This document shows positions 8,860 to 64,000 of a stretch of 64,000 bases of DNA, piece after piece. The notes below the pieces were generated by a model. The model had not been told where the DNA came from. It worked only from the letters and a program-made list of their open reading frames with translations, and did no database searches. Positions within the stretch are counted from its first letter, which is position 1. The number at the start of each line of letters is the position of its first letter. Origin of the DNA: Cladocopium goreaui (lineage: Eukaryota; Sar; Dinophyceae; Suessiales; Symbiodiniaceae); NCBI GenBank assembly GCA_947184155.2, contig CAMXCT020003217.1, forward strand, positions 1-64,000, given 5' to 3'. Made by a program: the position numbers and the translations under genes.

Positions 8860-8916
8860 TACTATCACAGAACAAACCATGAACCCCTAAATAGGGCCTA
8901 TATTTCGATTCCAAAA

Positions 8917-9108
8917 ATGGCCCCATCACGGCAAAGACAATGTAGCCAATCGGAAATAGTGAAGGATATTCTCGAAGAGCATGCAAAGGTCGGTGGAGCC
9001 TTCACAGGATGGCTGCAGGCGAAATGTTTCATTCCAGCTCCTCATTACAATGATAACATCTGGGCCAGTCCAAGTCCCCTGCAACCCCTGCAGTCAGCGT
9101 TAAAGTGA
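8917..9108 (+). CDS. Low-confidence small ORF at unit start
   Basis: The ATG at 8917 opens 63 codons with SQSEIVKDILEEHAKVGGAF in the middle and a Pro-rich end. The core is recognisable in every unit (for example near 16423 and 61130), with frameshifts. The opposite strand is the extrapolated 5' part of the transposase-like gene, so one of the two readings is a shadow. I cannot decide which. Confidence 0.2.
   Translation: MAPSRQRQCSQSEIVKDILEEHAKVGGAFTGWLQAKCFIPAPHYNDNIWASPSPLQPLQSALK
9075..9104 (+). repeat. CCCCTGC-rich motif, copy a (direct)
   Basis: TCCCCTGCAACCCCTGCAGT then CAGCGTTAAAGTGA. Same orientation as copy b at 9401. It recurs once per unit at the equivalent place. Confidence 0.6.
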
Positions 9109-9400
9109 CAAAAGCAAGGTGGGCCAGAGAACCCAAAAGCATGACGGCACACAGCACGCCTTTTAATCTTGTGGTGTGGGCAGCTGTGCTCTGCACGAAA
9201 TCGACGTAAGATCTGTACTGAAGCATCGTGCGCACTGACGGTATCAGGGGCCACAATTCACCACAGCATGCTGTGTCAGCTACGTCTACATTCTTCTATT
9301 CGCTTTTTCTGCTAATGTAATTAATTCCGTCCCATCTTATCTATTTCTGCGTTCTCATTTCGTTTGCTAGAGACCCCTAGAAAAATGTGACCACACCCAA

Positions 9401-9430
9401 TCCCCTGCGACCCCTGCGGTCAATGTTGAA
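9401..9430 (+). repeat. CCCCTGC-rich motif, copy b (direct)
   Basis: TCCCCTGCGACCCCTGCGGT followed by CAATGTTGAA. It is an imperfect inverted partner of 9544-9573. Together they bound 173 bp like short terminal inverted repeats. Viewed circularly in the tandem array, they also bound the remaining ~7.3 kb. Confidence 0.6.
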
Positions 9431-9543
9431 ATTTGTCAATGTTTGAATACCGATCGAACAGACATCAATAGACATGAAAGGCTTTCATTCTGGGACGTCT
9501 CCTCGATAGACATCAAACATTTATTCTGAAAAGTCCGCGGCAT

Positions 9544-9573
9544 GTCAACATTGACTGCAGGGGTTCAAGGGGA
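9544..9573 (-). repeat. CCCCTGC-rich motif, copy c (inverted)
   Basis: GTCAACATTGACTGCAGGGG followed by TTCAAGGGGA. Its reverse complement matches copy b with about four differences. The next bases, ATCCCCTGCGG, complete an AGGGGATCCCCT palindrome (9568-9579). Confidence 0.6.
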
Positions 9574-9699
9574 TCCCCTGCGGCTTTTCTTTCAACTACG
9601 CAGCTGCACCTGCCAACAAACAGTACTGGGCCTTCCACAAACGCGCGTCGTACTACGCAATCATGAAGAGACATGCAAACTCAGATGTATAAACTGGTT

Positions 9700-10210
9700 C
9701 GCTCAGGCGCACGCCAAAAGCTGCATCGCAACCCTGGCGTCCATTCGGCAGGTGAGTTGTTACACGCTCCTTAGATGTATTGGACTTCCATGACCACCGT
9801 TCTGCTGTCAAAAAGAAGAAAAACCTGTTGTGGCATCTGGAACATTTAAGCACCTTAGCCCAACGTTAAATTCATCCCTCATCGCCAGTTCTGCTTGCCA
9901 AAAACGGCCCACTTCTTCCACAAAAATCTTGAAGCTCCACGCCAAAACTGCATCGCAACCTGCGTCCATATCGGCAGGTAGTTGTTTTACCACTCCTAGA
10001 TGTTTTGGACTTCCATGACCACCGTTCTGCCTGTCCAAAAAAAAAAAACAAATTTTTTGAACCAAAACCTTTTGTGGTATTGAACGTTAAGCACCTTAGC
10101 CCAACGTTAAATTCATCCCTCATCGCCAGTTCTGCTTGCCAAAAACGGCCCACTTCTTCCACAAAAATTTGAGGCTCACGCCAAAATCTGCATCGCAACC
10201 CTTGCGTCCA

Positions 10211-10241
<31 letters not shown>

Positions 10242-10370
10242 ATGTTTTGGACTTCCATGACCACCGTTCTGCTGTCAAAATGAACCAAAACCTTTTGTGG
10301 TATCTTGAACTTTTAAGCACCTTAGCCCAACGTTAAATTCATCCCTCATCGCCAGTTCTGCTTGCCAGAA
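9700..10370 (+). repeat. ~230-bp minisatellite in U1, 3 copies
   Basis: The block with GCTGCATCGCAACCC, CCATTCGGCAGGTGAGTTGT and ACTTCCATGACCACCGTTCT recurs at about 9720, 9949 and 10190. Each copy ends in CCCAACGTTAAATTCATCCC and CGCCAGTTCTGCTTGCC. The embedded CAGGTGAGT is a perfect-looking splice donor on the plus strand, present once per copy. Both strands are open over long distances, which reflects the repeat rather than a gene. Confidence 0.85.
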
Positions 10371-10559
10371 ACAACAAGAACAGATCAGGTTAGACATTAT
10401 CGCAGCTGCAGCAACAGGAACTTGTTTTGGTAGAAGAAACAACTCTATACGCACTACGTTGCTCCGCAAGGGCCTGCCTCATACCACAACCTCATACCAG
10501 GACCCCGAAGCGAATGTTACAACCTGTCGCCGGGAAAAAAAAAAGGTCCAGCTTTCAAC

Positions 10560-12145
10560 TGCTGCACTCACCTGGGGGCCTGCCACCGCAAAAATGCACA
10601 TTTTCACCTGGGAGTCTGCCACCGCAAAAAAAAAGGTTAAGAAGGTGTTCAGGGCTTTCAACTGGACCGCACTCAGCTGGGGAACTTCCCACCGCAAAAA
10701 ACCACAAGAAAGGTGTAGCTTGCAAGTGTCGCATTTTCATCTGGAGCCTGTCCACTTTCAAAAACTTCAAGATATGCCAGCTGCAGCTGTCACATTTGGC
10801 ACCTGGAGCCTGCCACCACGCAAAAAAAAAGTCAAGAAGGTTTTGTTTCAACTGCCAGCACACACGTCATCTAGGGGCCTGCCACCGCAAAACCGTCAAG
10901 AATCGGCAGCTTGCAAGCTGTCACTTGTCACCTGGGAGCTTGCCACCAAAAAAAAAAGTAAAGAAGGTTTAGTTTTCAACTGCCACACTCATCTGGGAGC
11001 CTGCCACCGCAAAAACGTCAAGAATAGGCAGCTTGCAGCTGTCACATTTTCACCTGGGAGCCTGCCACCGCCAAAAAAAAAAACAAAGAAGGTTCAGCTT
11101 TCAACCGCCACACTTATCTGGGAGCCTGCCACCGCAAAAACGTCAAGAATATCCAGCTTGCAGCTGTCACATTTTCACCTGGGAGCTTGCCACCGCAAAA
11201 AAGGCAAAGAAGGTTTAGTTTTTAACTGCCACGCTCATCTGGGAGCCTGCCACCGCAAAAACGTCAAGCATATCCATCTTGCAGCTGTCACATTTTCGCT
11301 TGGGAGCCTGCCACCGCAAAAGAAAGGTCAAGAAGGTTCAGCTGGGAGCCTGCCACCGCAAAAAAATCAAGAATATCCAGCTTGCAGCTGTCCCATTTTC
11401 ACTTGGGAGCCTGCCCCCGCAAAAAAAAAAAGGTCAAGAAATTTCAGTTTGCAACTGTCACGCTCATCTGGGCGCCTGCCACCCGAAAAAGGGAAAAAAT
11501 GTGCAGCTTGCAAGTGTCGCATTTTCATCTGGGAGCCTGCCACCGCCTAAACGTCAAGAATATCCAGTTTGCAGCTGTCACATTTTCGCCTGGGGGCCTG
11601 CCACCGCCAAAAAAAAAGTAAAGAGGTTAGCTTTCAACTTTCAACTACCACAGGTCATCGGGGAGTCTGCCACCACAAAAAATGAACAAATGTGCAGCTT
11701 GCAAGTGTATCATCTGGGGCTGCCATCAAAAAAATGTCAAATTCCAGATTGCAAAACAGAAGGTGGGATAGATTAGAACTTTTTTTCACACAAAGGAAGA
11801 TTGATATGAATTTAAAAAAAAACCTTATTCTATCCCACCTCGACAAAAGTTCATCTACCAATTTCAGGAAACTGGGAATTTTTTGTTGGTTTTACTTCCA
11901 GGTGAGAATGTGACAGCTGCCAATTGAATTTTTCCTGTTTTTTTTTTCCGGGTGGCAGGCTCCCAGGTGAAATGTGACGCTGCAAACTCGATATTATTGA
12001 CGTTTTTGCGGTGGCAGGCTCCCAGGGAGTGCGGCAGTTGAAAACTGAACCTTTTTAGATTTTTTTTTGCGGTGGCAGGTTCCCAGGTGAAAATGTACAG
12101 CTGCAAACTGATTTTTTGACGTTTTTGCGGTAGCAGGCTGCAAAT
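10560..12145 (+). repeat. 60-bp motif array, forward then inverted (U1)
   Basis: The core CTGGGAGCCTGCCACCGCAA occurs about 20 times in forward orientation from 10578 to about 11715, with a period of about 60 bp. Two alternating flanks (ACGTCAAGAATATCCAGCTT and AGGTAAAGAAGGTTTAGTTT) make a dimer of about 120 bp. After a 12-bp stem and loop (11761-11840), the core appears four times as its reverse complement (GCGGTGGCAGGCTCCCAGG) at about 11951, 12009, 12069 and 12128. The whole block is therefore a lopsided inverted repeat able to fold on itself. Confidence 0.9.
11761..11840. repeat. 12-bp perfect stem with 56-nt loop at the orientation switch
   Basis: AGGTGGGATAGA (11761-11772) and TCTATCCCACCT (11829-11840) are exact reverse complements. 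They sit precisely between the forward and inverted motif arrays. The pair is kept in U2 (19193/19261), U3, U5 and U6. U4 and U7 have lost one C in the right arm. Confidence 0.75.
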
Positions 12146-12162
12146 ATGTAGAATCCCAAATA

Positions 12163-12414
12163 AGGATCTTATGCTCGCGTGCGTGCAGTCTACTTACCGC
12201 GAAACACCAGTTACACCTTACTACAACGTCTCCCCGTCAAAAACGTCGTAAAACAACCAGCAAAACCGAAATCACATGGTTGCTTCCCTTGAAGCAAAAC
12301 ACAGATGTCACAGTTGTGACTGCTTCTTACAACAAAACAAACGAACTCACTCAAACTGATTTGTTTGAGTTGGTTGGTTTGAAAAAATTGGTTCTCGTGG
12401 TGAATAAGCCATGA
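12163..12414 (+). CDS. Plus-strand ORF after the inverted motif array, hypothetical C-terminal exon
   Basis: The frame ends at TGA 12412-12414. The last 60 codons look coding: RRKTTSKTEITWLLPLKQN, then VTVVTASYNKTNELTQTDLF and ELVGLKKLVLVVNKP. In U4, U5 and U7 the upstream part reads better (PVTPYYNRPPSKRRKTTSK, for example 34339-34644). There, however, a base loss near the end truncates it at QLIF. The KRRK stretch could be a nuclear-localisation signal. The start is not clear, because the frame runs back into the inverted repeats. It may be the last exon of a gene convergent with the transposase-like gene. The family is not recognised. Equivalent stops in other units: 19844, 27307. Confidence 0.4.
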   Translation, partial: RILCSRACSLLTAKHQLHLTTTSPRQKRRKTTSKTEITWLLPLKQNTDVTVVTASYNKTNELTQTDLFELVGLKKLVLVVNKP

Positions 12415-12604
12415 AAAAAAAACGAATTCCGCTCATCCGGTGGTGACATTTCATGTCATGTTGAAAATGACGTTAAATTACTCATTTTCAGACAAACCAT
12501 ATTATATCTATATATAGTTACCGGCTAAGACGCCAAGTCTAAAGTCATCCTTCCAAGTTACGCGCAGAAAAAAACGCATGTGAAAATAAACCAAAAATAA
12601 ATGT

Positions 12605-12620
12605 GACATGCGGACATGTG
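12605..12620. promoter_or_regulatory. ACATG...ACATGT dyad word
   Basis: GACATGCGGACATGTG. The same kind of word (CACATGGACATGTG/C) occurs at 13186-13199 and 13291-13304, so three per unit, conserved in all units. A protein-binding site is only a possibility. Confidence 0.25.
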
Positions 12621-12865
12621 AAAAACTGCCGTCGACAAGTTGAAGCTGAAACCACTTGCACATTCAGTTTCTTTTTCCTGTCAAAGCATGGGGAAATCTT
12701 AAATTGTTCCAAGCTGGATTCACACTGGCACGGTGACACAAACCCACTTGAATCCAAACCTTTCTTGAGAGTGAGTGAAACCACCCCGTTTGCATTACAC
12801 ATGTTTAAATGACAAGCAACATTCATTGATCTTGCACGTTTGGTTTAAACTGACAGGGGGCATTC

Positions 12866-13108
12866 ATGTTTTGTGAATCACTCACAAGGTTGGAACGCTC
12901 CACTGACATTTTGACATTTAAAATACAAGACGGAAACGCGATAGTTTCAACGCCAGCTTCATGGATTGACGCTGTGCTCAGCCGATCTAAGCCGTCACGT
13001 GCTAGGTCCCAACAAAAGAGCGGGAAATCAGACAGGGTGGCACACTCTGTTTCAGAAAGCCTGCCGGGTCTCCAAACCAAAGTCCAAATGGTCAAGCGCA
13101 ACGCTTAA
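12866..13108 (+). CDS. Hypothetical 80-residue ORF (U1)
   Basis: It starts at ATG 12866. The first part looks coding (MFCESLTRLERSTDILTFKI, then GNAIVSTPASWIDAVLSRSK). The second half differs between units because of one-base indels (KSDRVAHSVSESLPGL in U1; RKPAGSPNQSPNGQG in U2, U3 and U6). Copies: 20298-20561, 27761-28024, 50167-50430 and, more damaged, 35130-35408, 42668-42946, 57536-57814. It may be an internal exon of a plus-strand gene. Family unknown. Confidence 0.3.
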   Translation: MFCESLTRLERSTDILTFKIQDGNAIVSTPASWIDAVLSRSKPSRARSQQKSGKSDRVAHSVSESLPGLQTKVQMVKRNA

Positions 13109-13157
13109 CCTATCTATAACCCGCTATTGACAAGTCAACTGCAAACGTCCCCCAGCG

Positions 13158-13321
13158 TTTTGCGCGAGCCCGCGCAGGCGAAATGCACATGGACATGTGA
13201 TAAGAGGCATTTCGTGTGGAAATTTGCAGGGAAAATGCCGGACCCGTATTCCAAGGCAAGCATTTTGTGCGATCCTGCGCAGTCAAAATGCACATGGACA
13301 TGTCACAAGAAGCATTTTGTG
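13158..13321 (+). repeat. Two ~58-bp direct repeats, 105 bp apart
   Basis: TTTTGCGCGAGCCCGCGCAG...GAGGCATTTCGTG (13158-13216) and TTTTGTGCGATCCTGCGCAG...GAAGCATTTTGTG (13263-13321) are about 80 per cent alike. Both contain the dyad CACATGGACATGT. Confidence 0.75.
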
Positions 13322-13476
13322 TTATGTCACCCACACATTACTACCACAATTTCAGCGTTGATGCAAACGTCGGGCAAATAAGACAACATGTCGGTGAAAA
13401 TGGGCCACTCTTCAATGGTATCTCCCTGCCAAGTGGCTGCAAAGTAGTTGCACTGCTGGCCCGCGCATCTGATTGA
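13216..13476 (+). CDS. Hypothetical 86-codon ORF (U1)
   Basis: The end of this frame looks coding and is kept in most units: FSVDANVGQIRQHVGENGPL, then FNGISLPSGCKVVALLARAS followed by D and a stop. Copies: 20650-20910 (end shifted), 28079-28372, 35493-35747, 43031-43285, 50485-50778, 57899-58153. The N-terminal half lies in the 58-bp direct repeats and is uncertain. Function unknown. It could be spliced to the preceding ORF at 12866. Confidence 0.3.
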   Translation: MEICRENAGPVFQGKHFVRSCAVKMHMDMSQEAFCVMSPTHYYHNFSVDANVGQIRQHVGENGPLFNGISLPSGCKVVALLARASD

Positions 13477-14061
13477 CACCGGCACACAAGGGCATCTTCA
13501 GCCCTCAAAAGATGAAGGTCGAAACTGCCCGAAATAAAAATCATCATTTGCACAATCTCCAATGATGTTTTGTTTTGTTCCACGTGAGAAGAGGAGGAAA
13601 TAAGTAAATAAAGGGAAACGAGGACAAGCAAATGACCATCAGAGTAGTGAGTCCGTGCACAGCAGACAAGCGTTGCCGACCCGCTAAAACTTTACAACAC
13701 TCAAAACTAGAAATGCTTCTGGAGGAAGTAAGCCGCGCCTGGTGAAGTGAATCCTGTCGCTCATGGGCTGGATGTCCTCGCAAAAGCAGCTTCACCTCCG
13801 TGCATTGCAAGAAACGTCGTTTACTCTCTAAACACTATGTCATCCAACATGTGAACATCGAGCCTTCAACCCCAGCTGCTGTCTGTTTCATAGATGCAAC
13901 CTTGAAAGTCATAACCCCTTTTTTCTTGGCGCCACTACCGCGCTAAGTGAAGAAAACCAAGCTTTGCTGTTCCCCAGCGGTGCGCACACTGGCGGGCCCC
14001 ATGAGACTACAATGTAAGCCAAGGTTGAAAAGCTACACACTCGCCTGAGTTTGGCGTGCCA
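13477..14061. other. Silent stretch between the convergent coding zones (U1)
   Basis: About 585 bp where I see no convincing gene on either strand. This is where the 3' ends of the plus-strand ORFs and the minus-strand transposase-like gene would meet. GGTGCGCACACTGGCG-like words recur near 13930 and 13980. Equivalent stretches exist in every unit. Confidence 0.4.
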
Positions 14062-16190
14062 TCAAAAAAAACAGTCCTCTTTGCTCAAATCGCCCATCTT
14101 TGGCTATTAGTCTCTCTCTTTTTGCTTTCGCTTTTCAGCGTTTGCTGACGTCTTTCATCGAAAGCTTTTCACTCCTGCCTTCTCCGCTTAAGGTCGCCCA
14201 GCACGTCAGTCATAGTAGTAGAGATCACAGGCGCAGCCACGGAGGAGGTCACAGCTGCACCGTCAGCCATAGAGCCCATAGAGGTCGCAGCTGCCAAATC
14301 ATGCGCGCCGTCAGCCATGGAGCCTATGGAGGTCACAGTGGGGTCACTACTGGCGCAACATCAGGGTTTTTCGTCTCTACAAATTCAATCAGAGCCGTTG
14401 AACAGGCATGCACAGTTAGCCAGCGCAGCTGTTTCCACACTGAACAAATGCTGGTCAGGCACCATCAAAACGGCTCCATGTTTTGAACTGTCTGACGGTC
14501 CTTTTTTCAGACCTCCGCAACGTTCTGTCATTGTATCTTCACTCCAAATTACGAGTGAACAGCAGGGGATATGTTTTGCTTGTACAGCGTTGTCTCGGCC
14601 AGAGAGAGGCTATCTGGGATTGCGTCGGCAAACTGTCCTGCACTGTCGGGTCTAAGCCCAGTGCTTGAAGGTCCTTGGTCAAAAGATTGATATTTCCATC
14701 AAGGGCACAAATGGCTTGAAAGGCTTTAGCCCAAGAACGTGCCTGCAGCCAAGCAGGCACTTTGAAAACAATCTGGAAAAACAAGGCTTTGGTCACTTCG
14801 TGACCCTCGGCCCGCAGCTTTTGAAGTTCACCAGCAAAAAAAGCCTTGAAGGCTCTGAAACAAAAGACATCTGCCCCCTGAAGTTGAGGAGTGAGACCAG
14901 TTGGCACGCAAGCTATAAAGAGTTGCAGGCTTCGTGCCTTTTGCAGCGGACTGCGTGATGTGGCCCGGAGCCAGGTCATGGTCAGATTGGCTGGCGAACT
15001 GCTGCCAAGCCTCAAAGCAGCTTGCTAGCACCTCCAAATTTTCACATGACAACAGATGTGTTCCACGACTAAGCTAATCTCCATATACACTAAGGACGGT
15101 GGGGCTGCAGCAAGTAAGTCTTTGTTAAAGCTTTTTGGGGCACAAGTGTCTTTTGCAAAGCACAAAGGAAGGCAAGCACTTTGCACGGCTTCATTTTCAC
15201 AAAGCCAGCAACGAATGTTGCGCTGCCGCGTCTCAGAAGCTTTGCCCCTGCATGGGAAGTCCAACCACGCTTTGGACTCTACCAGTCCCACGCGCGGTTT
15301 TCTCTGGAAAGCGCATCAAGTCTCGTCTAAGTTCAACAAAAGGAAGCGGTCGGTCCAGTGTAGTTCTGCGTTGCAAATGTTGCAACCATTGCCAAAAAAT
15401 TGCCACCTGCACAACGAAAACGACCCCATGTTCCGCCCCCAAAAATGACCCCAGTTTTAGTTCCCCTACATCAAAAGATCTAGTTTTGGGCCGTCACGGC
15501 CCCAGATTTGGGGCCCCCACCTTGCCCTTTTCAATTTCAGGTTGGCACGACCATGCTCGACGAATAAACCCAGCGCTTGCGAAGCGCTGCACCCATGCAA
15601 TTCTTCCACGATAGCCAATGCAGCGACTGGACGGCTCAAATGCTTCGTACATGGCGTACACAGCCGCCAAACTTGGAACCACTCCTCGAAGATTAAGCTT
15701 TTCAATCTCTTTGACCAACAAAACTTCAGCCACCTCCTTGCGAACTCGGGCGCGGATACTCGCATCAAGAGGCACAGAGACCGCTATTTCCTCCACTAAG
15801 TCCAGCGTGGGGTAGTCAGCGTCCTCTGGGCGTAAGCCACTGAATTTTTGGGCGGCAAACAAAGTGATTGCAAGGTCGCAGCCAGACATCAAGTAGGCCG
15901 CACGGACCTTCTCCAACCATGGCAATGTCAGCCCAACGGGGAAAAGTCTGCGGCTTTGCCGCTTTCTCTTGCCGCTGCCGAAGCCATTGGAAAAACCAAC
16001 TGTGTGTTGAATGCCATTTGGCATTCGCGGCATGTTCATCCAAGGCCTCCAAGCCCCCAAATGGAAAAGCACAAGTAGGGATGCTGCTCTTGAGGCAAAA
16101 ACTGCACATGGCCTCAAGCTTATAAGTCTCAAGTAATCCGGATGGTTCCAAAAAAGTCCCGTGGCATTTTTGTTGAAACAGTCCTGAAAG
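14062..16190 (-). pseudogene. DDE-superfamily transposase-like gene, U1 copy (frameshifted)
   Basis: Read on the minus strand, the unit encodes, in order, a Cys/His-rich segment (CSFCLKSS...LEALDEHAANAK, about 16120-16010), a charged segment (GLTLPWLEKVRAAYLMSGCD), a helix-turn-helix region, a DDE catalytic domain and a basic tail. In the DDE_1 family (pogo, Tigger, jerky, CENP-B relatives) the first Asp sits in an N-x-DET motif, the second in a D-x-x-x-x-H motif, and the third in a TP-x-LQ-x-x-D motif followed by F-x-x-FK. All three are visible here. In U1 the first motif is read as VELRRDLMRF because of two compensating indels. The second is destroyed by one missing base at about 14976, so this copy cannot be active as assembled. 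The third reads LQGADVF and is kept in frame at 14539-15015. The true start and introns are unknown. Confidence 0.7.
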
Positions 16191-16510
16191 CACCGCGCCG
16201 CTCCGACACCAAAGGCACGGCGCCTGACAAGGCGGGGGCACCAAAGCCTATTTCCTACATCTGCAAAGGCACCCCGCAAAAAATGAACCAAACAAACCGT
16301 GTGGCGCAGCTTTGCGCGCTTGAGAAGATCCTCCAATGCACTGAGTGGCACACCCCCGCTGAAGATACTATCACAGAACAAACCATGAACCCCTAAATAG
16401 GGCCTATATTTCGATTCCAAAAATGGACCCATCACGGCAAAGACAATGTAGCCAATCGGAAATAGTGAGGATATTCTCGAAGAGCATGCAAAGGTCGGTG
16501 GAGCCTTCAC
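15494..16510 (-). CDS. Longest open frame of the transposase-like gene (338 codons, U1/U2 junction)
   Basis: This frame contains the N-terminal and DNA-binding part. Well-formed stretches are GGVPLSALEDLLKRAKLRHT, then VGLTLPWLEKVRAAYLMSGC, then FSGLRPEDADYPTLDLVEEI, RARVRKEVAEVLLVKEIEKL and NLRGVVPSLAAVYAMYEAFE. The middle (residues about 125-190) reads worse than the alternative frame carrying LEALDEHAANAK, so a frameshift pair or an intron lies there. The first codon is GTG, so the start is artificial. U4 and U7 show the end of this domain in another frame as VQRFRKRWGLSRRAW (37559-37882, 59965-60288), typical of the helix-turn-helix that precedes DDE domains in CENP-B/Tigger proteins. Confidence 0.55.
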   Translation of the reverse strand: MKAPPTFACSSRISSLFPIGYIVFAVMGPFLESKYRPYLGVHGLFCDSIFSGGVPLSALEDLLKRAKLRHTVCLVHFLRGAFADVGNRLWCPRLVRRRAFGVGAARCFQDCFNKNATGLFWNHPDYLRLISLRPCAVFASRAASLLVLFHLGAWRPWMNMPRMPNGIQHTVGFSNGFGSGKRKRQSRRLFPVGLTLPWLEKVRAAYLMSGCDLAITLFAAQKFSGLRPEDADYPTLDLVEEIAVSVPLDASIRARVRKEVAEVLLVKEIEKLNLRGVVPSLAAVYAMYEAFEPSSRCIGYRGRIAWVQRFASAGFIRRAWSCQPEIEKGKVGAPNLGP

Positions 16511-17204
16511 ACAGGATGGCTGGGCAGGCGAAATGTTTCATTCCAGCTCCTCAGTACAATTATAACATCTGGGCCCGTCCCAAGTCCCCTGCACCCCTGC
16601 AGTCAGCGTTAAAGTGACAAAAGCAAGGTGGGGCAAGAACCCAAAAGCATGACGGCACACAGCACGCCTTTAATCTTGTGGTGTGTGGCAGCTGTGCTCT
16701 GCACGAAATCGACGTAAGATCTGTACTTGAGCATCGTGCGCACTGACGGTAATCAGGGGCCACAATTCACCACAGCATGCTGTGTCAGCTACGTCTACAT
16801 TCTTCTAGTCGCTTTTTTCTGCTATGTAATTAATTCCGTCCCATCTTATCTATTTCTGCGTTCTCATTTCGTTTGCTAGAGACCCCTAGAAAATGTGGAC
16901 CACACCCACATCCCCTGCGACCCCTGCGGTCAATGTGAAATTTGTCAATGTTTAATACCGATCGAACAGACATCATAGACATGAAATGCTTTCATCTGGA
17001 GGTCTCCTCGATAGACATCAAACATTTATTCTGAAAAGTCCGCGGCATGTCAACATTTGACTGCGGGTTCAAGGGGTCCCCTGCGGCTTTTCTTTCAACT
17101 AAGCAGCTGCACCTGCCAACAAACAGTACTGGGCCTTCCACAAACGCGCGTCGTACTACGCAATCATGAAGAGACATGCAAACTCAGATGTATAAACTGG
17201 TTCG

Positions 17205-17690
17205 CTCAGGCGCACGCCAAAAGCTGCATCGCAACCCTGGCGTCCATTCGGCAGGTGAGTTGTTACACGCTCCTTAGATGTATTGGACTTCCATGAACCA
17301 CCGTTCTGCGTCAAAATGAAGAAAAACCTGTTGTGGCATCTGGACATTTAAGCACCTTAGCCAAAGTTAAATTCATCCCTCTCGCCAGTTCTGCTTGCCA
17401 AAAACGGCCACTTCTTCCACAAAAATTTGAAGCTCACGCCAAAGCTGCATCGCAACCCTGGCGTCCATTCGGCAAGGTGAGTTGTTACACACACCTTAGA
17501 TGTTTTGGACTTCCATGACCACCGTTCTGCTGTCAAAATGAACCAAACCTTTTGTGGTATCTTGAATTTAAACCCTTAGCCCAACGTTAAATTCATCCCT
17601 CATCGCCAGTTCTGCTTGCCAAAAACGGCCCACTTCTTCCACAAAAATTTGAGGCTCACGCCAAAAGCTGCATCGCAACCCTTGCGTCCA

Positions 17691-17721
<31 letters not shown>

Positions 17722-17850
17722 ATGTTTTTGACTTCCATGACCACCGTTCTGCTGTCAAAATGAACCAAAACCTTTTGTGGTATCTTGAACGTTTAAGCAC
17801 CTTAGCCCAACGTTAAATTCATCCCTCATCGCCAGTTCTGCTTCCCAGAA
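17205..17850 (+). repeat. ~230-bp minisatellite in U2, 3 copies
   Basis: GCTGCATCGCAACCC at about 17224, 17445 and 17668. It has small indels compared with U1. Confidence 0.85.
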
Positions 17851-18039
17851 ACAACAAGAACAGATCAGGTTAGACATTATCGCAGCTGCAGCAACAGGAA
17901 CTTGTTTTGGTAGAAGAAACAACTCTATACGCACTACGTTGCTACGCAAGGGCCTGCCTCATACCACAACCTCATACCAGGACCCCGAAGCGAATGTTAC
18001 AACCTGTCGCCGGGAAAAAAAAAGTCCAGCTTTCAACTG

Positions 18040-19577
18040 CTGCACTCATCTGGGGGCCTGCCACCGCAAAAATGCACATTTTCACCTGGGAGTCTGCCAC
18101 CGCAAAAAAAAAGGTTAAGAAGGTTCAGCTTTCAACTGACGCACTCATCTGGGAACCTGCCACCGCAAAAAACCACAGAAGGTGGAGCTTGCAAGTGTCG
18201 CATTTTCATCTGGGAGCCTGCCACTGCAAAAACGTCAAGAATATCCAGCTTGCAGCTGTCACATTTTCACCTGGGAGCCTGCCACCGCAAAAAAAAGGAA
18301 AAGAAGGTTTTGTTTTCAACTGCCACCCTCATCTAGGGGCCTGCCACCGCAAAACCGTCAAGAATAGGCAGCTTGCAGCTGTCACATTTTCACCTGGGAG
18401 CCTGCCACCGAAAAAAAGTAAAGAAGGTTTAGTTTTCAACTGCCACACTCATCTGGGAGCCTGCCACCGCAAAAACGTCAAGAATAGGCAGCTTGCAGCT
18501 GTCACATTTTCACCTGGGAGCCTGCCACCGCAAAAAAAAGGAGAAAAGAAGGTTCAGCTTTCAACCGCCACACTGCCAGCCGCACCGTCAGCGTCAAGCT
18601 TCCAGTTGCACATGTTGTTCACCAGCTTGGAGGTACAAAAAGTAAAAAAATTTAGTTTTTAACTGCCACGCTCTCTGGATCCTGCCTGCCACCGCAAAAA
18701 CGTCAAGCATATCCAGCTTGCAGCTGTCAAATTTCCGCTTGGGAACTGCACCCAAAAGAAAGGTTCAAGAGGTTCAGCTGGGAGCCTGCCACCGCAAAAA
18801 AAAATCAGAATATCAGCTTGCAGCTGTCCTTTTCACTTGGAGCCTGCCCCGCAAAAAAAAAAGGTCAAGAAATTTCAGTTTGCAACTGTCACGCTCATCT
18901 GGGCGCCTGCCACCCGAAAAAGGGAACAATGTGCAGCTTGCAAGTGTCGCATTCTCATCTGGTGAGCCTGCCACCGCCTAAACGTCAAGAATATCCCAGT
19001 TTGCAGCTGTCACATTTTCGCCTGGGGGCCTGCCACCGCCAAAAAAAAAGTAAAGAGGTTAGCTTTCAACTTTCAACTACCACAGGTCATCGGGGAGTCT
19101 GCCACCACAAAAAATGAACAAATGTGCAGCTTGCAAGTGTATCATCTGGGGCTGCCATCAAAAAAATGTCAAATTCCAGATTGCAAAACAGAAGGTGGGA
19201 TAGATTAGAACTTTTTTTCACACAAAGGAAGATTGATATGAATTTAAAAAAAAACCTTATTCTATCCCACCTCGACAAAAGTTCATCTACCAATTTCAGG
19301 AAACTGGGAATTTTTTGTTGGTTTTACTTCCAGGTGAGAATGTGACAGCTGCCAATTGAATTTTTCCTGTTTTTTTTTTCCGGGTGGCAGGCTCCCAGGT
19401 GAAATGTGACGCTGCAAACTCGATATTATTGACGTTTTTGCGGTGGCAGGCTCCCAGGGAGTGCGGCAGTTGAAAACTGAACCTTTTTAGATTTTTTTTT
19501 GCGGTGGCAGGTTCCCAGGTGAAAATGTACAGCTGCAAACTGATTTTTTGACGTTTTTGCGGTAGCAGGCTGCAAAT
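18040..19577 (+). repeat. 60-bp motif array, forward then inverted (U2)
   Basis: Forward part 18040-19155, inverted part 19327-19577. A foreign-looking segment (18568-18640, with AGCTTCCAGTTGCACATGTT) interrupts the forward part here and in U3 only. Confidence 0.9.
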
Positions 19578-32410: not shown

Positions 32411-32441
<31 letters not shown>

Positions 32442-39984: not shown

Positions 39985-40015
<31 letters not shown>

Positions 40016-53516: not shown

Positions 53517-54543
53517 TGAAAAAGTCCTGAAAGCACCGCGCCGCTCCGACACCAAAGGCACCGGCGCCTGACAAGGCGGGGGCAAAAAGCCTATTTTCCT
53601 ACATCTGCAAAGCACCCCGCAAAAATGAACCAAACAAACCGTGTGGCGCAGCTTTGCGCGCTTGAGAAGATCCTCCAATGCACTGAGTGGCACACCCCCG
53701 CTGAAATACTATCACAGACACAAACCATGAACCCCTAACATAGGGCCTATATTTCGATTCCAAAAAAGGGGCCCCATCACGGCAAAACATGTAGCCAATC
53801 GGAAATAGTTGAAGGATATTCTCGAGAGCATGCAAAGGTCGGTGAGCCTTCACAGGATGGCTGAAGGCGAAATGTTTCATTCCAGCTCCTCAGTACAATG
53901 ATAACATCTGGGCCAGTCCAAGTCCCCTGCAACCCCTGCAGTCAGCGTTAAAGTGACAAAAGCAAGGTGGGGCCAGAGACCCAAAAGCATGCGGCACACA
54001 AGCACGCCTTTTAATCTTGTGGTGTGGGCAGCTGTGCTCTGCACGAAATCGACGTAAGAATCTGTACTGAAGCATCGTGCGCACTGACGGTATCAGGGGC
54101 CACAATTCACCACAGCATGCTGTGTCCAGCTACGTCTACATTCTTCTAGTCGCTTTTTCTGCTAATGTAATTAATTCCGTCCCCTCTTATCTATTTCTGC
54201 GTTCTCATTTCGTTTGCTAAGACCCCTAGAAAAATGTGACCACACCCAATCCCCTGGACCCCTGCGGTCAATGTGAAATTTGTCAATGTTTGGGAATACC
54301 GATCGAACAGACATCAATAGACATGAAAGGCTTTCATTCTGGGAGGTCTCCTCGATAGACATCAACATTTATTCTGAAAAGTCCGCGGCATGTCAACATT
54401 GACTGCAGGGGTTCAAGGGTCCCCTGCGGCTTTTCTTTCAACTAAGCAGCTGCACTGCCAACAAACAGTACTGGGCGGCCTTCCACAAACGCGCTTCGTA
54501 CTACGCAATCATGAGAGACATGCAAACTCAGATGTATAACTGG

Positions 54544-54816
54544 TCGCTCAGGCGCCGCCAAAAGCTGCATCGCAAACCCTGGCGTCCATTCGGCAGGTGA
54601 GTTGTTACACGCTCCTTAGATGTATTGGACTTCCATGACCACCCGTTCTGCTGTCAAAATGAAGAAAACCTGTTGTGGCATCTGGACACATTTAAGCACC
54701 TTAGCCCAACGTTAAATTCATCCTCATCGCCAGTTCTGCTTGCCAAAAACGGCCCACTTCTTTCCACAAAATTTGAAGCTCACGCCAAAAGCTGGCATCG
54801 CAACCCTGGCGTCCAA

Positions 54817-54847
<31 letters not shown>

Positions 54848-55205
54848 ATGTTTGGGGACTTCCATGACCACCGTTCTGCTGTCACAAATGAACCAAAACC
54901 TTTTGTGGTATCTTGAACGTTTAAGCACCTTAGCCCAACGTTAAATTCATCCCTCATCGCCAGTTTCTGCTTGCCAACGGCCCAAGGCGGTCCACAAAAA
55001 TGTTGAGGCTCACGCCAAAAGCTGCATCGCAACCTTGCGTCCATGGTCGCAGGTGAGTTGTTACACACTCCTTAGATGTTTTGGAACTTTCCATGACCAC
55101 CGTTCGCTGTCAAATGAAAACCAAAAACCTTTTGTTGTACTTGAACGTTTAACACCTTAGCCCAACGTTAAAGTAATCCTCATCGCCAGTTCTGCTTGCC
55201 AGAAA
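54544..55205 (+). repeat. ~230-bp minisatellite in U7, 3 copies
   Basis: Identical to U4 at a 22406-bp shift, including the altered third copy. Confidence 0.85.
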
Positions 55206-55390
55206 CAACAAGAACAGATCAGGTTAGACATTATCGCAGCTGCAGCAACAGGAACTTGTTTTGGTAGAAGAACAACTCTATACGCACTACGTTGCTACGC
55301 AAGGGCCTGCCTCATACACAACCTCATACCAGGACCCCGAAGCGAATGTTACCACCTGTCGCCGGGGGGAAAAAAAAAAAAAAGGGTCCA

Positions 55391-56830
55391 GCTCAGCTGC
55401 ACTTCAACGGGCACTCAGCTGGCCTGCAAAAACGCACATTTTCAAGCCATTTTCATCTGGACCTGCCACGCAAAAAAAGTTAAGAAGGGTTCATCTTCAC
55501 TGACGCACTCATCTGGGAACCGCCACCGCAAAAAACAAAGAGGTGTAGCTTGCAAGTGTCCGCATTCATCTGGGCCTGCCACCGCAAAACGTCAAGAATA
55601 TCAGCTGCAGCTGTCACAATTTTCCACCTGGGAGCCTGCCACCGCAAAAAAAAAAGGTAAAGAAGGTTTAGTTTTCAACTGCCACACTCATCTAGGGCCT
55701 GCCACCCGCAAAAACGTCAACGGATAGGCAGCTGCACTGTCACAGCTTTTCACCTGGGAAGCCTGCCACCGCCAAAAAAAAGCAAAGAAGGTTCAGCTTT
55801 CAGCCACCCTTATCTGGAAGCTGCCACCGCAAAAACGCAAGTGCAGCTGCAGCGTCACATTTTCACCTGGGAGCTTGCCACCGCAAAAAAGGTAAAAAGG
55901 TTTAAGTTTTTAATGCCACACTCATCTGGGCCTGCCACCGCAAAAACGTCAAGCATATCCACTTGCAGCTGTCACATTTTCGCTTGGGAACCTGCCACCG
56001 CAAAGAAAGGTCAAGAAGGTTCAGCTGGGAGCCTGCCACCGCAAAAAAAATCAAGAATATCCAGCTTGCAGCTGTCACATTTTTCACTTGGGAGCCTGCC
56101 ACCCGCAAAAAAAAAAGGTCAAGAACTTTCAGTTTGCAACTGTCACGCTCACTGGGCGCCTGCCACCCGAAAAGGGAACAAATGTGCAGCTTGCAAGTGT
56201 CGCATTCTCATCTGGGAGCTGCCACCGCCTAAACGTCAAGAATATCCAGTTTGCAGCTGTCACATTTTCGCCTGGGGGCCTGCCACCGCCAAAAAAAAAA
56301 GTAAAGAAGGTTAGCTTCATTCAAAACTACCACACAGCATCTGGGAGTTGCCACCACAAAAATGAACAAATTGTGCAGCTTGCAAGTGTATCATCTGGGG
56401 CCTGCCATCAAAAAAATGTCAAATCAGATTGCAAAACAGAAGGTGGGATAGATTAGAACTTTTTTTTCACACAAAGGAAGATTGATATGATTTAAAAAAA
56501 AACCTTATTCTATCCACCTCGACAAAAGTTCACTACCAGCATTTCAGGAAACTGGGAATTTTTTGTTGGTTTACTTCCAGGTGAGAATGTGACAGCTGCA
56601 AGTTGATTTTTCCTGTTTTTTTTTCCGGTGGCAGGCTCCCAGGTGAAAATGTGACAGCTGCAAACTCGATATTATTGACGTTTTTCGGTGGCAGGTCCCA
56701 GGTGAGTGCGGCAGTTAAAACTGAACCTTTTTTAGATTTTTTTTTTGCGGTGGCAGGTTCCCAGTGAAAATGTGACAGCTGCCAAACTGGATATTTTTGA
56801 CGTTTTTTGCGGTAGCAGGCTGCAAATATG
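55391..56830 (+). repeat. 60-bp motif array, forward then inverted (U7)
   Basis: Identical to U4 at a 22406-bp shift. Confidence 0.9.
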
Positions 56831-58756
56831 TAGAATCCCAAATAAGGATCTTTATGCTCGCGTGCGTGCAGTCTACTTACCCGCGAAACAACCAGTTACA
56901 CCTTACTACAACCGTCCTCCGTCAAAACGTCGTAAAACAACCAGCAAAACCGAAATCACATGGTTGCTTCCCTTGAAGCAAAACAAAGATGTCACATTTG
57001 TGACTGCTTCTTACAAACAAACAAACGAACTCACTCAACTGATTTTTTGAGTTGGTTGGGTTTGAAAAAATGTTCTCAGTGGTGAATAAGCCATGAAACA
57101 AAAAACGAATTCGCTCATCGGTGGTGACATTTCATGTCATGTTGAAAATGACGTAATTACTCATTTCAGACAACCTATATTATATATATATATAAGTTTA
57201 CCGGCTAAGACGCCAAGTCTAGAAGTCATCCTTCCAGTTACGCGCAGAAAAAACGCATGTGAAAATAAAACCAAAATAACATGTGACTGCGGACATGTGA
57301 AAAACTGCCGTCGACAAGTTGAAGCTGAAACACACTTGCACATTCAGTTTTCTTTTTCCTGTCAAAGCATGGGGAAATCTTAAATTGTTCCAAGCTGGAC
57401 ACACTGGCACGGTGCCACAAAACCCACTTGAACCAAACTTCTTGAGAAAAAGAAAATGAGTGACCCCGTTTGCATTACACATGTTTAAATGACAAGCAAC
57501 ATTCATTGAGCTTGCACGTTTGGTTAAACTGACAGTTGGTTGCATTCATGTTTTGTGAATCAGCTCACAAGGTTGGAACATCTCCAACTGAACATTTGAC
57601 ATTAAAAAATACAAGACGGAAACGCGATAGTTTCACGCCAGCTTCATGGATTGAATCGCTGTGCTCAAGCCGATCTAAGCGTCACGTGCTAGGTCCCACA
57701 CAAAGAGCGGGAAAATCAGACAGGGTGCACACTCGTTTCAGAAAGCCTGCCGGGTCTCCAAACCAAAGTCCAATGGTCAAGCCAACGCTTAACCTATCTA
57801 TAAACCGCTATTGACAAGTCAACTGCAAACGTCCCCCAGCGTTTTGCGCGAGCCGCGCAGGCGAAATGCACATGGACATGTGATAAGAGGCATTTCGTGT
57901 GGAAATTTGCAGGAAAAATGCCGGACCGTATTCCAAGGCAAGCATTTTGTGCGAGCCTGCGCAGTCAAAATGCACATGGACATGTCACAAGAAGCATTTT
58001 GTTTATGTCACCCACACATTACTACCACATTTCAGCGTTGATGCAAACGTCGGGCAAATAAGACAACATGTCGGTGAAAATGGGCCACTCTTCAATGGTA
58101 TCTCCCTGCCAAGTGGCTGCAAAAGTAGTTGCACTGCTGGCCCGCGCATCTGATTGACACCGGACACAAGGGGCAATCTTCAGCCCTCAAAAGGAAGGTC
58201 GAAACTGCCCGAAATAAAAAATCTTTTCATTTGCACAATCTCCAATGATGTTTTGTTTTGTTCCACGTGAGAAGAGGAGGAAAAATAAGTAATAAAGGGG
58301 AAACGAGGACAAGCAAATGACCACATCAGAGTAGTGAGTCCGTGCACAGCAGACAACGTTTACGACCCGCTAAACTTTACAACACTCAAAACTAGAATGC
58401 TTCTGGAGGAGTAACCATGCCTCCGTTGTGAAGTAATCCTGGTCGCTTCATGGGGCGGGATGTTCCTCGCAAAAAAGCAGCTTAAACATCGTCGCATTGC
58501 AGAACGTCAGTTAACCTCATCTAACACTTATGTCAACAACAGTTGACACATCGACCTTCAACACGATGCTGCTGTCATTGATGCAACCTTTGAAAAAGTC
58601 AAAACACCTTTTGTCATCGCACAACCGGCGCTAAGGTTGAAGAAGAAACCAAAGCTTTGCTGTTCCCCCAGCGGTGCGCTAACTGGCCCCCAGTGAAGAA
58701 ACTACAATGTAGCCAAGGTTGAAAAGACTACACAATCGCCTGAGTTTGGCGTGCCA

Positions 58757-60876
58757 TCAAAAAAAACAAGTCCTCTTTGGCTCAATCGCCCAGCTTTGGC
58801 GATGAGTCTCTTCTGCTTTTGCTTCGCTTTTCAGCGTTTTGCTGACGTCTTCAGCGAAATTTCAACTCCTGCCTTCTCCGCTTAAGGTCGCCCAGCACGT
58901 CAGTCATAGTAGTAGAGATCACAGGCGCAGCCGGAGGAGGTCACAGCTGCACCGTCAGCCATAGAGCCCATAGAGGTCGCAGCTGCCAAATCATGCGCGG
59001 CCGTCAGCCATGGAGCCTATGGAGGTCCACAGTGGGGTCACTACTGGCGCAACAGCAGGGTTTTTCGTCTCTACAAATTCAATCAGAGCCGTTGAAACAG
59101 GCATGCACAGTTAGCCAGCGCAGCTGTTTCCACACTGAACGAAATGCTGGTCAGGCACCAGCAAACGGCTCCATGTTTTGAACTGTCTGACGGTCCTTTT
59201 TCACCTCCGCAACGTTCTGTCACTGTATCTTCACTCCAAATTACGATGAAAGCAGGGAAATATGTTTTGCTTGTACAGCGTTGTCTCGGCCAAGAGAGGC
59301 TATCTGGGGATTTGCGTCGGCAAACTGTCCTGCACTGTCGGGTCTAAGCCCAGTGCTTGAAGGTCCTTGGTCAAAGATTGATATTTCCATCAAGTGCACA
59401 AATGGCTTTGAAAGGCTTTAGCCCAAGAACGTGCCTGCAGCCAAGCAGGCACTTTGAAAAAATCTGGAAAAAAAACAAGGCTTTGGTCACTTCGTGGACC
59501 CTCGGCCGCACTTTTGAAGTTCACCAGCAAAAAGCCTGAAGGCTCTGAAACAAAAACATCTGCCACCTGAAGTTGAGGAGTGAGACCAGTTGGCACGCAA
59601 GCTATAAAAGAGTTGCAGGCTTCGTGCCTTTGCAGCACGGACTGCGTGATGTGGCACGGAGCCAGGTCATGGTCAGTGGCTGGCAGAACTGCTGCCAAGG
59701 CCTCAAAGCAGCTGCTAGCACCTCCAAAATTTCACACATGACAACAGATGTGTTCCACGACGAGCTAATCTCCATATACATAAGAAGGTGGGGCTGCAGC
59801 AAGTAAGTCTTCGTAAAGCTTTTGGGGCACAAGTGCTTTGCAAGCACAAAGAAGGCAAGCACTTTTGCACGGCTCATTTTCACAAAGCACAGCAACGAAT
59901 GTTTGCGCTGCCGCGTCTCAGAAGCTTTGCCCCTGCATGGGAAGTCAACCACGAGCTTTGGACGCTACCAGTCCCACGCGCGTTTCTCTGGAAGCGCATG
60001 CAAGTCTCGTCTAAGTTCACAACAAAAGAAGCGGTCGGTCCAGTGTTTTCTGCGTTGCAAATGTTGCAACCATTGCCAAAAAAATTGCCACCTGCACAAC
60101 GAAAACGACCCCACTTCCTGCCCCAAAATGACCCCAGTTTTAGGTCCCCTACATAAAAAAGATCTAGTTTTGGGGCCGCTCACGGCCCCAGATTTGGGGC
60201 CCCCCTTGCCCTTTTCAATTTCAGGTTGGCACGACCATGCGCGACGAGATAAACCCCAGCGCTTGCGAAAGCGCTGCACCCCATGCAATTCTTCCCACGA
60301 TAGCCAATGCAGCGACTGGACGGCTCAAATGCTTCGTACATGGCGTACACAGCCGCCAAACTTGGAACCACTCCTCGAAGATTAAGCTTTTCAATCTCTT
60401 TGACCAACAAAACTTCAGCCACCTCCTTGCGAACTCGGGCGCGGATACTCGCATCAAGAGGCACAGAGACCGCTATTTCCTCCACTAAGTCCAGCGTGGG
60501 GTAGTCAGCGTCCTCTGGGCGTAAGCCACTGAATTTTTGGGCGGCAAAAAGTGATTGCAAGGTCGCAGCCAGTCAAGTAGGCCCGCACTGACCTTCTCCA
60601 ACCATGGCAATGTCAGCCAACGGGGAAAAGTCTGCGGCTTTGCCGCTTCTCTTGCCGCTGCCGAAGCCATTGGAAAAACCAACTGTGTGTTGAATGCCAT
60701 TTTGGCATTCGCGGCATGTTCATCCAAGGCCTCCAAGCCACCAAATGGAAAAGCACAAGTAGGGATGCTGCTCTTGAGGCAAAAACTGCACATGGCCAAA
60801 AAAGCACAGTAGGGATGCAAGTCTCAAGTAATCCGGATGGTTCCAAAAAAGTTCCGTGGCCTTTTTTGTTGAAACA
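58757..60876 (-). pseudogene. DDE transposase-like gene, U7 copy
   Basis: Identical to the U4 copy at a 22406-bp shift, including the extra AC near NLDET and the missing base in the second motif. Confidence 0.65.
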
Positions 60877-61895
60877 GTCCTGAAAGCACCGCGCCGCTCC
60901 GACACCAAACCAAACGGCACCGCTCTGACAAGGCGGGGGCAAAAAGCCTATTTTCCTACATCTGCAAAGGCCACCCCCGCAAAAAATGAACCAACAAACC
61001 GTGTGGCGCAGCTTTGCGCGCTTGAGAAGATCCTCCAATGCACTGAGTGGGCACACCCCCGCTGAAGATACTATCACAGAACAAAATGAACCCCTAAAGG
61101 GCCTATATTTCGATTCCAAAAATGGCCCCATCACGGCAAAGACATGTAGCCAATCGGAAATAGTGAAGGATATTCTCGAAGAGCATGCAAAGGTCGGTGG
61201 AGCCTTCACAGGATGGCTGAGGCGAAATGTTTCATTCCAGCTCCTCAGTACAATGATAACATCTGGGCCAGTCCAAGTCCCCTGCAACCCCTGCAGTCAG
61301 CGTTAAAGTGACAAAAGCAAGGTGGGCCAGAGAACCCAAAAGCATGCGGCACACAGCACGCCTTTTAATCTTGTGGTGTGTGGGCAGCTGTGCTCTGCAC
61401 GAAATCGACGTAATCGTATGAAGCATCGTGCGCACTGGACGGTATCAGGGGCCACAATTCACCACGCATGCTGTGTCAGCTCGTCTACATTCTTCTAGTC
61501 GCTTTTTCTGCTAATGTAATTAATTCCGTCCCATCTATCTTTTCTGCGTTCTCATTTCGTTTGCTAGAGACCCCTAGAAAATGTGACCACACCCCATCCC
61601 CTGCGACCCCTGCGGTCAATGTTGAAATTTGTCAATGTTTGAATACCGATCGAACAGACATCATAGCACATGAAAGGCTTTCATTCTGGGAGTCTCCTCG
61701 ATAGACATCAACATTTATTCTGAAAAGTCCGCGGCATGTCAACATTGACTGCAGGGTTCAAGGGAATCCCCTGCGGCTTTTCTTTCAACTAAGCAGCTGC
61801 ACCTGCCAACAAAACAGTACTGGGCCTTCCACAAACGCGCGTCGTACTACGCAATCATGAAGAGACATGCAAACTCAGATTTATAAACTGGTTCG

Positions 61896-62391
61896 CTCAG
61901 GCGCACGCCAAAAGCTGCATCGCAACCCTGGCGTCCATTCGGCAGGTGAGTTTGTTACACGCTCCTTAGATGTATTGGACTTCCATGACCACACCGTTTC
62001 TGCTGTCAAAATAAAAAACCTGTTGTGGCATCTGGAAACATTTAAGCACCTTTAGCCCACTTAAATTTCATCCCTCATCGCCAGTTCTGCTTGCCAAAAA
62101 CGGCCCACTTCTTCCACAAAAATTGAAGGCTCACGCCAGAAGCTGCATCGCAACCCTGGCGTCCATTCGGCAGGTGAGTTGTTACACGCTCCTTAGATGT
62201 ATTGGACTTCCATGACCACCGTTCTGCTGTCAAAATGAAGAAAAACCTGTTGTGGCATCTGGAACAATTAAGCACCTTAGCCCAACGTTAAATTCATCCC
62301 TCATCGCCAGTTCTGCTTGCCAAAAACGTCCCACTTCTTCCACAAAAATTTGAGGCTCACGCCAAAAGCTGCATCGCAACCCTTGCGTCCA

Positions 62392-62422
<31 letters not shown>

Positions 62423-62790
62423 ATGTTTTGGACTTCCATGACCACCGTTCTGCTGTCAAAATGAACCAAACCCTTTTGTGGTATCTTGAACGTTTAAGCA
62501 CCTTAGCCCAACGTTAAATTCATCCCTCATCGCCAGTTCTGCTTGCCAAAAACGGCCCACTCCTTCCACAAAAATTTGAGGCTCACGCCAAAAGCTGCAT
62601 CGCAACCCTGGCGTCCATTCGGCAGGTGAGTTGTTACACGCTCCTTAGATGTATTGGACTTCCATGACCACCGTTCTGCTGCTGTCAAAATGAAAAACCT
62701 AAACCTTTTTGTGTTTCTGGAAACGTTTAAGCCCTTAGCGCAACGTTAAGGCCTCCCTCATAAGCGCCAGTTTCTGCTTCCAGCAAGCAA
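61896..62790 (+). repeat. ~230-bp minisatellite in U8, 4 copies
   Basis: Copies at about 61914, 62143, 62368 and 62599. One copy more than in all other units, so copy number varies between units. Confidence 0.85.
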
Positions 62791-62959
62791 CAAGAACAGA
62801 TCAGGTTTAGACACTATCGCAGCTGCAGCACGGACTTGTTTTGGTAGAAAGAACAACTCTATCCCTCACTCCGTTGCTACGCAAGCCTGCCTCTACCACA
62901 CCGCAGACCAGGAAACCCCGAGCGAATGTTACAACCTTTCGCCGGGGGGAAAAAAAAAG

Positions 62960-64000
62960 TCCAGCGTTTCAACTGCGCACTCAATCGGGGCGCCTGCCCC
63001 AGGCAAAAATCACATGTTCACCGTTCACAAACTGGGGAGTCTGCAACCCGCAAAAAAAAAAGGGTTTACGAATGTCAGCTTTCACAACTTACGCACTCAT
63101 CTGGTAACCGGCCAACCCGCAAAAAACCACCTAAAGTTTATCTTGCAAGTGTCCTTTCATCTGGGAGCCTGCCACCGCAAAAACGTCAAGAATATCCAGC
63201 TTGCAGCTGTCACATTTTCACCTGGGAGCCTGCCACCGCAAAAAAAAAGGTAAAGAAGGTTTAGTTTTCAACTGCCACACTCATCTAGGGGCCTGCCACC
63301 GCAAAACCGTCAAGAATATGCAGCTTGCAGCTGTCACATTTTCACCTGGGAGCCTGCCACCGAAAAAAAAAGTAAAGAAGGTTTAGTTTTCAACTGACAC
63401 ACTCATCTGGGAGCCTGCCCCCGCAAAAACGTCAAGAATAGGCAGCTTGCAGCTGTCACATTTTCACCTGGGGCCTGCCACCGCCAAAAAAAAGCAAAGA
63501 AGTTTCAGCTTTCAACCGCCACACTTATCTGGGAGCCTGCCACCGCAAAAACGTCAAGAATATCCAGCTTGCAGCTGTCACATTTTCACCTGGGAGCTTG
63601 CCACCGCAAAAAAAGGTAAAAAAGGTTTAGTTTTTAACTCCCACGCTCATCTGGGAGCCTGCCACCGCAAAAACGTCAAGCATCCACTTGCAGCTGGGGT
63701 TCACATTTCCGGCTGGAAGACCTGCCAGCCCTGTCACCCAGAAGTCAAGAAGGTTCAGCTGGGAGCCTGCCACCGCAAAAAAATCAAGAATAACCAGCTT
63801 GCAGCTGTCACATTTTCACTTGGGAGCCTGCCACCGCAAAAAAAAAAGGTCAAGAAATTTCAGTTTGCAACTGTCACGCTCATCTGGGCGCCTGCCACCC
63901 GAAAAAGGGAACAAATGTGCAGCTTTCAAGTGTCGCATTCTCATCTGGGAGCCTGCCACCGCCTAAACGTCAAGAATATCCAGTTTGCAGCTGTCACATT
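62960..64000 (+). repeat. 60-bp motif array (U8), cut by window end
   Basis: Forward cores from about 62990 to 63955. The inverted part is beyond the window. Confidence 0.85.

Follow-up and report, generated by a model that had tools for sequence, protein, structure and literature searches.

In bacterial composite transposons, passenger DNA lies between two direct copies of an element. In the available parts of published accounts, alternative transposition of the maize Ac/Ds elements, with composite insertions and macrotransposons, involves two nearby elements and the DNA between them, tandem direct duplications and transposition-competent bordering ends (PMC4270019), and satellites such as Tetris in Drosophila virilis are transposon sequence made into tandem repeats (PMC4079207). 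Here, we describe a head-to-tail array of two alternating modules, designated A and B, in a 64,000-nucleotide stretch of the Cladocopium goreaui genome (the window; positions 1-64,000 of contig C3217, which is 72,692 bp long, in a genome sequence of 1.17 Gb and 6,202 contigs). We favour, with a probability of about 0.62, the explanation that the array consists of a gene-free cut-and-paste transposon, A, and a segment carrying a transposase gene, B, that have been amplified, with CTG excision scars.

The array resembles transposons of the Tc1/mariner-pogo group (ITm) in its TA target duplication, inverted ends, putative gene for a DDE_1-related DDxD transposase and probable short excision scar, but the mobile module A is without a gene, and the gene lies between direct copies of A. 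As in bacterial composite transposons, direct copies of an element flank passenger DNA, whereas here the outer elements lack the enzyme and the passenger holds its gene. The 8-bp duplications and reversed ends given for Ac/Ds in that account (PMC4270019) contrast with direct, TA-inserting copies that have the transposase gene between them. Unlike Tetris, as far as the part of its description drawn on goes (PMC4079207), the array repeats whole modules with a combined length of ~7.5 kb, and many copies of the gene have an open exon 2. No description of the A/B family was recognised in the literature, mostly judged by titles and the beginnings of abstracts.

Structure of the array

As judged by sequence comparison within contig C3217, the array extends from position 8860 to the end of the window and on to the end of the contig at 72,692. 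The repeat unit is made up of the two modules, each with separate borders. The window holds seven complete A-B units and part of an eighth A in a single orientation throughout, with 7,362-7,541 bp between consecutive A starts:

8860..14535, plus strand: module A copy 1, the left edge of the array; left end TACTATCACAGAAC, right end GTTCTGTCATTGTA
14536..16369, minus strand: module B copy 1, with the transposase gene on the minus strand; its right end has TACT in common with the next A
16366..21999, plus strand: module A copy 2
22000..23849, minus strand: module B copy 2
23846..29470, plus strand: module A copy 3
29471..31304, minus strand: module B copy 3
31301..36821, plus strand: module A copy 4
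36822..38666, minus strand: module B copy 4
38663..44359, plus strand: module A copy 5
44360..46207, minus strand: module B copy 5
46204..51876, plus strand: module A copy 6
51877..53710, minus strand: module B copy 6
53707..59227, plus strand: module A copy 7
59228..61072, minus strand: module B copy 7
61069..64000, plus strand: module A copy 8, extending past the window

The left edge at 8860 is an exact A left end. Beyond the window, A8 runs to contig position 66,967 and is followed by B-B-B and then by the start of another A up to the contig end. An earlier reading made from the letters alone (the sequence-only reading) had proposed a head-to-tail array from 8860 with more than seven copies, and both points were borne out. 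Its single transposon of ~7.4 kb was rejected: the gene sits in the segment between the A copies, the borders of A and B are separate, and A, the module with supported ends, lacks the gene.

DNA of the array is also found dispersed (40 matches listed from 924 candidates, four of the 40 in contig C3217), and A is both dispersed and tandem, which the sequence-only reading had set as alternatives. By end positions, arrays on several contigs open with an A left end and close with an A right end. Arrays may be written as A(BA)n, in which B would be enclosed by direct copies of A.

Module A and its target site

Module A is ~5.7 kb long (5,683 bp in contig C1446) and is without a convincing gene. It begins TACTATCACAGAAC and finishes GTTCTGTCATTGTA, and its termini are inverted repeats that match at 12 of 14 bp including the TA (TACTATCACAGAAC / TACAATGACAGAAC). 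Exact left ends gave 79 matches genome-wide, against 4 in the control. Non-B flanks adjoin 78 of these 79, the window's own included, and 75 of the 78 differ; the letter filter used omits about one quarter of left ends and nearly all B-to-A joints. Exact right ends numbered 160, against 7 in the control. Among the 100 right ends listed, 43 join B and 57 have other flanks, and no inverted A or B end lies next to the right end in those 57.

Module borders were also read from ten further genome loci, of which six leave A at or near its right end into six different flanks (C1112, C1191, C1683, C1946, C3535 and C89; C1683 ends a few bases short). Solitary A copies with both ends are found in C89, C3535 and C1112. 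In C89, A lies between TA and TA. Joining the C89 flanks at TA gave five spanning matches, and the two that were read, both paralogous sites, hold a single TA, CGG(A/G)AATAAATATTC; these empty sites show 77% identity across that stretch and hold an additional segment at some distance to the left of the TA. TA duplication was thus demonstrated at one of the three loci tested. Given the inverted ends, the TA duplication and the many different flanks at exact ends, A is assigned, on sequence grounds, as a cut-and-paste transposon.

The longest open frames in A (224, 210 and 193 aa) exceed the 176 aa reached at most in 50 shuffles (median 127) and are located in repeats; in our judgement these frames are by-products. 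The repeats placed in the first A copy are as follows:

9678..10415, minus strand: tandem repeats derived from 28S ribosomal RNA (rRNA), with two Rfam matches (9678-9930 and 10152-10415)
10737..11613, plus strand: tandem repeats of ~61/121 bp

The 28S-rRNA-derived repeats have a unit of 221-228 bp (~226 bp) and are present in the other A copies too, with the Rfam matches confined to A1, A5, A6 and A8. The 61/121-bp repeats occur in both orientations; in one dispersed A, inverted copies lie further right. On the minus strand near the right end of A (positions 5182-5532 of the C1446 copy) lies an open frame of 117 codons that includes a stretch rich in lysine and arginine, MADGAHDLAAATSMGSMADGA...LKRRRQELKASLKD, and may be a gene remnant of A. 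Separately, a 425-bp stretch at an A right end is shared at 99.8-100% by the members of three contig pairs, C662/C1972, C74/C670 and C225/C1913 (L051-L054, L056 and L057), which are either duplicate contigs or duplicated loci.

The predicted transposase gene of module B

Module B is ~1.85 kb long (1,866 bp as cut in C1446). The gene parts in its first copy, with exon 1 and the intron placed by eye (the gene was predicted in copy L050), are:

15521..16039, minus strand: transposase exon 1, from MNMPRM to EIEKGK
15407..15520, minus strand: putative GT-AG phase-0 intron (118 nt in L050)
14539..15406, minus strand: transposase exon 2 (DDE_1 region), broken by one TGA and one TAG in the protein match at 14542-15453

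In L050, the predicted gene would run from an ATG across a 118-nt GT-AG intron to a stop, encoding 465 aa. The motifs NLDET, MDLAPCHI and LQVADVFCFRAFK, which the sequence-only reading had picked out on the minus strand, do fall in one open frame, though of another gene copy; the B copies of the window are broken, with a longest open minus-strand frame of 150-291 aa in the seven complete ones. In Pfam, an open copy of exon 2 matches DDE_1 and no other family (21.0 bits, E 2.7e-4), and the spliced 465-aa protein scores 19.6 bits against the same family. The triad, placed by motif, consists of D201, D320 and D356, a spacing of D-118-D-35-D (DD35D). A search of the genome with the exon-2 protein listed 129 matches (128 scored of 1,080 candidates); the first 34 of the 129 are free of stops within the match, which in 27 of them spans residues 5-308 of the query or more. 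These sequence features favour a pogo/DDE_1-type transposase gene in B.

Further searches returned no match in PDB, none in NCBIfam for four proteins, and no relative among 19 candidate stretches from viral contigs and 119 from prokaryote genomes. Ten early open reading frames gave four weak Pfam matches, all under the cut-off (best E 0.018).

Joints, free edges and candidate excision scars

The pattern CGCTGAAGATACT(A/G)T(A/C)(A/T) picked out 89 right ends of B, against 0 in the control; 77 run into A, nine into B and three into other DNA. The B-to-A call was made from TACTATCA alone in 75 of the 77, and the other two, read further, carry a 2-bp insertion. Candidate CTA scars at C4493 proved to be ordinary B-to-A joints into which 2 bp had been inserted, and were withdrawn. 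Exact A-A joints, whether direct or with any three bases between two TAs, were not found in a search that noise-damaged joints would escape.

CTG is present in 12 of the 12 B-B joints examined, nine of which read exactly TA-CTG-TA; the joints at C3217:68852, C4052 and C5092 were found independently of the CTG pattern. All four free B edges (the right edges in C1446, C458 and C284 and the left edge in C1046) read TACTGTA, and only that of C284 was first found through the pattern, the others having preceded its use.

These CTG sites would be excision scars of a neighbouring A that was cut with a 3-nt stagger. The Tc1/mariner group cleaves 2-3 nt inside the 5' ends, according to the portion of PMC2170065 drawn on here. 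As A ends in CTA... and ...TTG, such cleavage would leave 3-nt 3' overhangs CTA and CAA, and annealing with trimming of the mismatched terminal bases would yield CTG, a scheme derived after the joints were known. If CTG is read as the scar of A excision, the arrays seen would once have been A(BA)n.

Proposed origin of the array

In the explanation favoured here, A would be a large transposon without an enzyme of its own that moves in the Tc1/mariner-pogo manner, using and duplicating a TA target and leaving TA-CTG-TA after a 3-nt staggered excision. Two direct A copies would have come to bracket the 1.85-kb B with its pogo-like transposase gene, and A-B-A would have grown into A(BA)n, either through unequal exchange among the A copies or through re-replication linked to transposition. 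Later excisions of A within arrays would account for the B-CTG-B joints and the CTG-marked array edges. Given their linkage and common TA habit, the enzyme of B probably serves A, in which case the array would be a cassette of enzyme source plus substrate.

Serial independent insertion is disfavoured as the builder of the array because the joints seen have a uniform orientation, none of the listed ends forming an inverted joint, and because exact A-A joints were not found. Either unequal exchange or replication-linked alternative transposition, the latter described for maize Ac/Ds in the available part of PMC4270019, could give the observed order. Head-to-tail amplification, with unequal exchange among the proposed routes, had been suggested in the sequence-only reading and is retained, while its rolling-circle route is opposed by the inverted ends and the TA duplication.

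Several observations weigh against this explanation. The ends of A are unlike the borders of B, leaving no visible binding link between enzyme and A, and the borders of B form a short inverted repeat (TATCTTCA/TGAAGATA), as is possible for a transposon. Both DDE_1 scores fall below the curated cut-off of 22, the better one, 21.0 bits, just under it; in favour of the pogo/DDE_1 family proposed at the outset are the sole Pfam match and the D-118-D-35-D triad. No DNA-binding domain was matched in Pfam up to E 10 for the exon-2 copy or the spliced protein, including the HTH_Tnp_Tc5 domain named as a check in the sequence-only reading; RFRKRWGLSRRAW resembles an N-terminal helix-turn-helix of the CENP-B/Tc5 type by eye only. 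L050 is the one copy in which the entire gene was checked and found open. In C4445, the source of the open exon 2, exon 1 is shifted, and in C1446 and C1247 an open exon 1 goes with a broken or shifted exon 2. For C3535 and C1446, the 40 matches listed in the empty-site tests include no site that spans the joined flanks, and the left and right flanks of both match different repeat families cut at the TA, those of the C1446 array coming from two families; such mixed flanks are due either to recombination between copies or to misjoined or chimeric contigs. A pattern requiring TACT(A/G)T, which TTG or plain-TA joints would escape, supplied nine of the 12 B-B joints and one free edge, and the three joints found independently have lost or gained one or two bases. 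Furthermore, the CTG sites are partly non-independent, with two in the array of C2068 and two in C3217. Two of these limits reduce our confidence slightly: L050 is the sole copy in which openness of the complete gene was checked, and most of the CTG joints were obtained with a pattern that favours them.

Evaluation of alternative explanations

There is a real, if minor, chance that the long array of the window is mainly a product of assembly, a few genuine A-B units having been chained and repeated by the assembler. Within the window, a block of 12,319 bp is letter-identical at an offset of 22,406 (a period of 22.4 kb) amid units that otherwise differ by ~5-8%. Identity to a dispersed copy is 99-100% at the head of the first A and 97-100% in the B nearest the contig end, both cleaner than the array interior, where bins of 120-200 bp give 75-100%. 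Compared with C1446, all 18 A and B copies of C3217 (several of them letter-identical to one another) have more transversions than transitions, and 1-bp indels are many; the same differences recur letter for letter across units. Among eight stretches taken from other contigs, substitutions number 0-8 in seven and 101 in the B of C881. As transversions also lead in six of the seven other-contig stretches that have substitutions, their ratio alone is no proof of noise. Together, the identity block and the divergence look like unpolished assembly, true old divergence with recent duplication being the less favoured reading. The 22.4-kb period was not relied on as a true higher-order repeat. Three of four dinoflagellate assemblies in two papers, as far as their available text goes, are MaSuRCA hybrids and one is a Supernova assembly (PMC9412976, PMC11114475). 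Against an origin mainly in assembly stand the B-to-A joints on many other contigs, the many flanks at A ends, and C1309, which is A-B-A with both outer edges, by end and joint positions. Such an origin for the window would be compatible with a gene-free transposon A amplified with B, which rests on many contigs.

It is unlikely that B is a pogo-like transposon in its own right, with ends CTGTATCTTCA.../...TGAAGATACTG and a TA duplication, into whose inner terminal TA A was inserted, the B-B joints then arising by exchange at the common TACTGTA. Its ends would begin C(A/T)G, as those of many Tc1/pogo elements do, the borders carry the short inverted repeat noted above, and the free B end at C1446 meets another repeat exactly at TA. 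Yet there are four free B edges against 77 B-to-A joints, no exact A-A joint has three bases where B might have left, and adjacent B modules should give GATACTG-TA-CTGTATC, whereas the 12 B-B joints examined have one common CTG. Rolling-circle transposition of the Helitron type would suit the head-to-tail order at the joints and is very improbable, because A has both the target duplication and the inverted ends that Helitrons lack, the gene is of DDE_1 type, and the borders do not look like Helitron ends. Equally improbable is the domesticated, centromere-like satellite suggested in the sequence-only reading, to which a CENP-B-like protein would bind; the part of PMC7325037 drawn on treats a Tigger-like pogo element as the likely source of CENP-B. 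No sign of a centromere or of a domesticated array was found: the window holds no exact match to a CENP-B-box consensus (0.29 expected), similar joints are spread over many contigs and have differing flanks, exon-2 frames are open, and A also occurs as single insertions.

Left flank of the array and host assignment

Adjoining the array is an inverted-repeat element at 6486-8591, with arms at 6486-6984 and 8093-8591 (499 nt, 96% complementary) that lie 1,108 nt apart. Further left are a tandem repeat at 2190-2572 (60 bp, 6.4 copies) and, at 181-576 on the minus strand, a 131-codon open frame with an ATG near its start and no Pfam or NCBIfam match. The host was taken as a dinoflagellate because the genome contains 172 exact copies of the spliced-leader 21-mer, which we take to be a dinoflagellate mark, with 0 in the reversed control.

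Implications

Dinoflagellate genomes contain many poorly classified repeats, and unclassified repeats are noted for Cladocopium in the available part of PMC9412976. In one such family, the A/B modules have exactly defined ends, a target site, candidate scars and an enzyme gene linked to them, and the activity of the family is thereby open to experiment. Tentatively, and on balance improbably, the two modules could form a composite of mutual dependence, in which direct copies of A bracket B, any two outer A ends can take B to new sites, the enzyme source is multiplied by exchange among the A copies, and excision of A trims it, making a self-adjusting device for transposase dosage that has spread through a dinoflagellate genome. 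The amplified gene-free transposon and transposase segment favoured here would be a naturally occurring example of tandem amplification driven by a transposon, with a transposase gene as the segment that is amplified, and one array may record both the amplification and the mobility of A.

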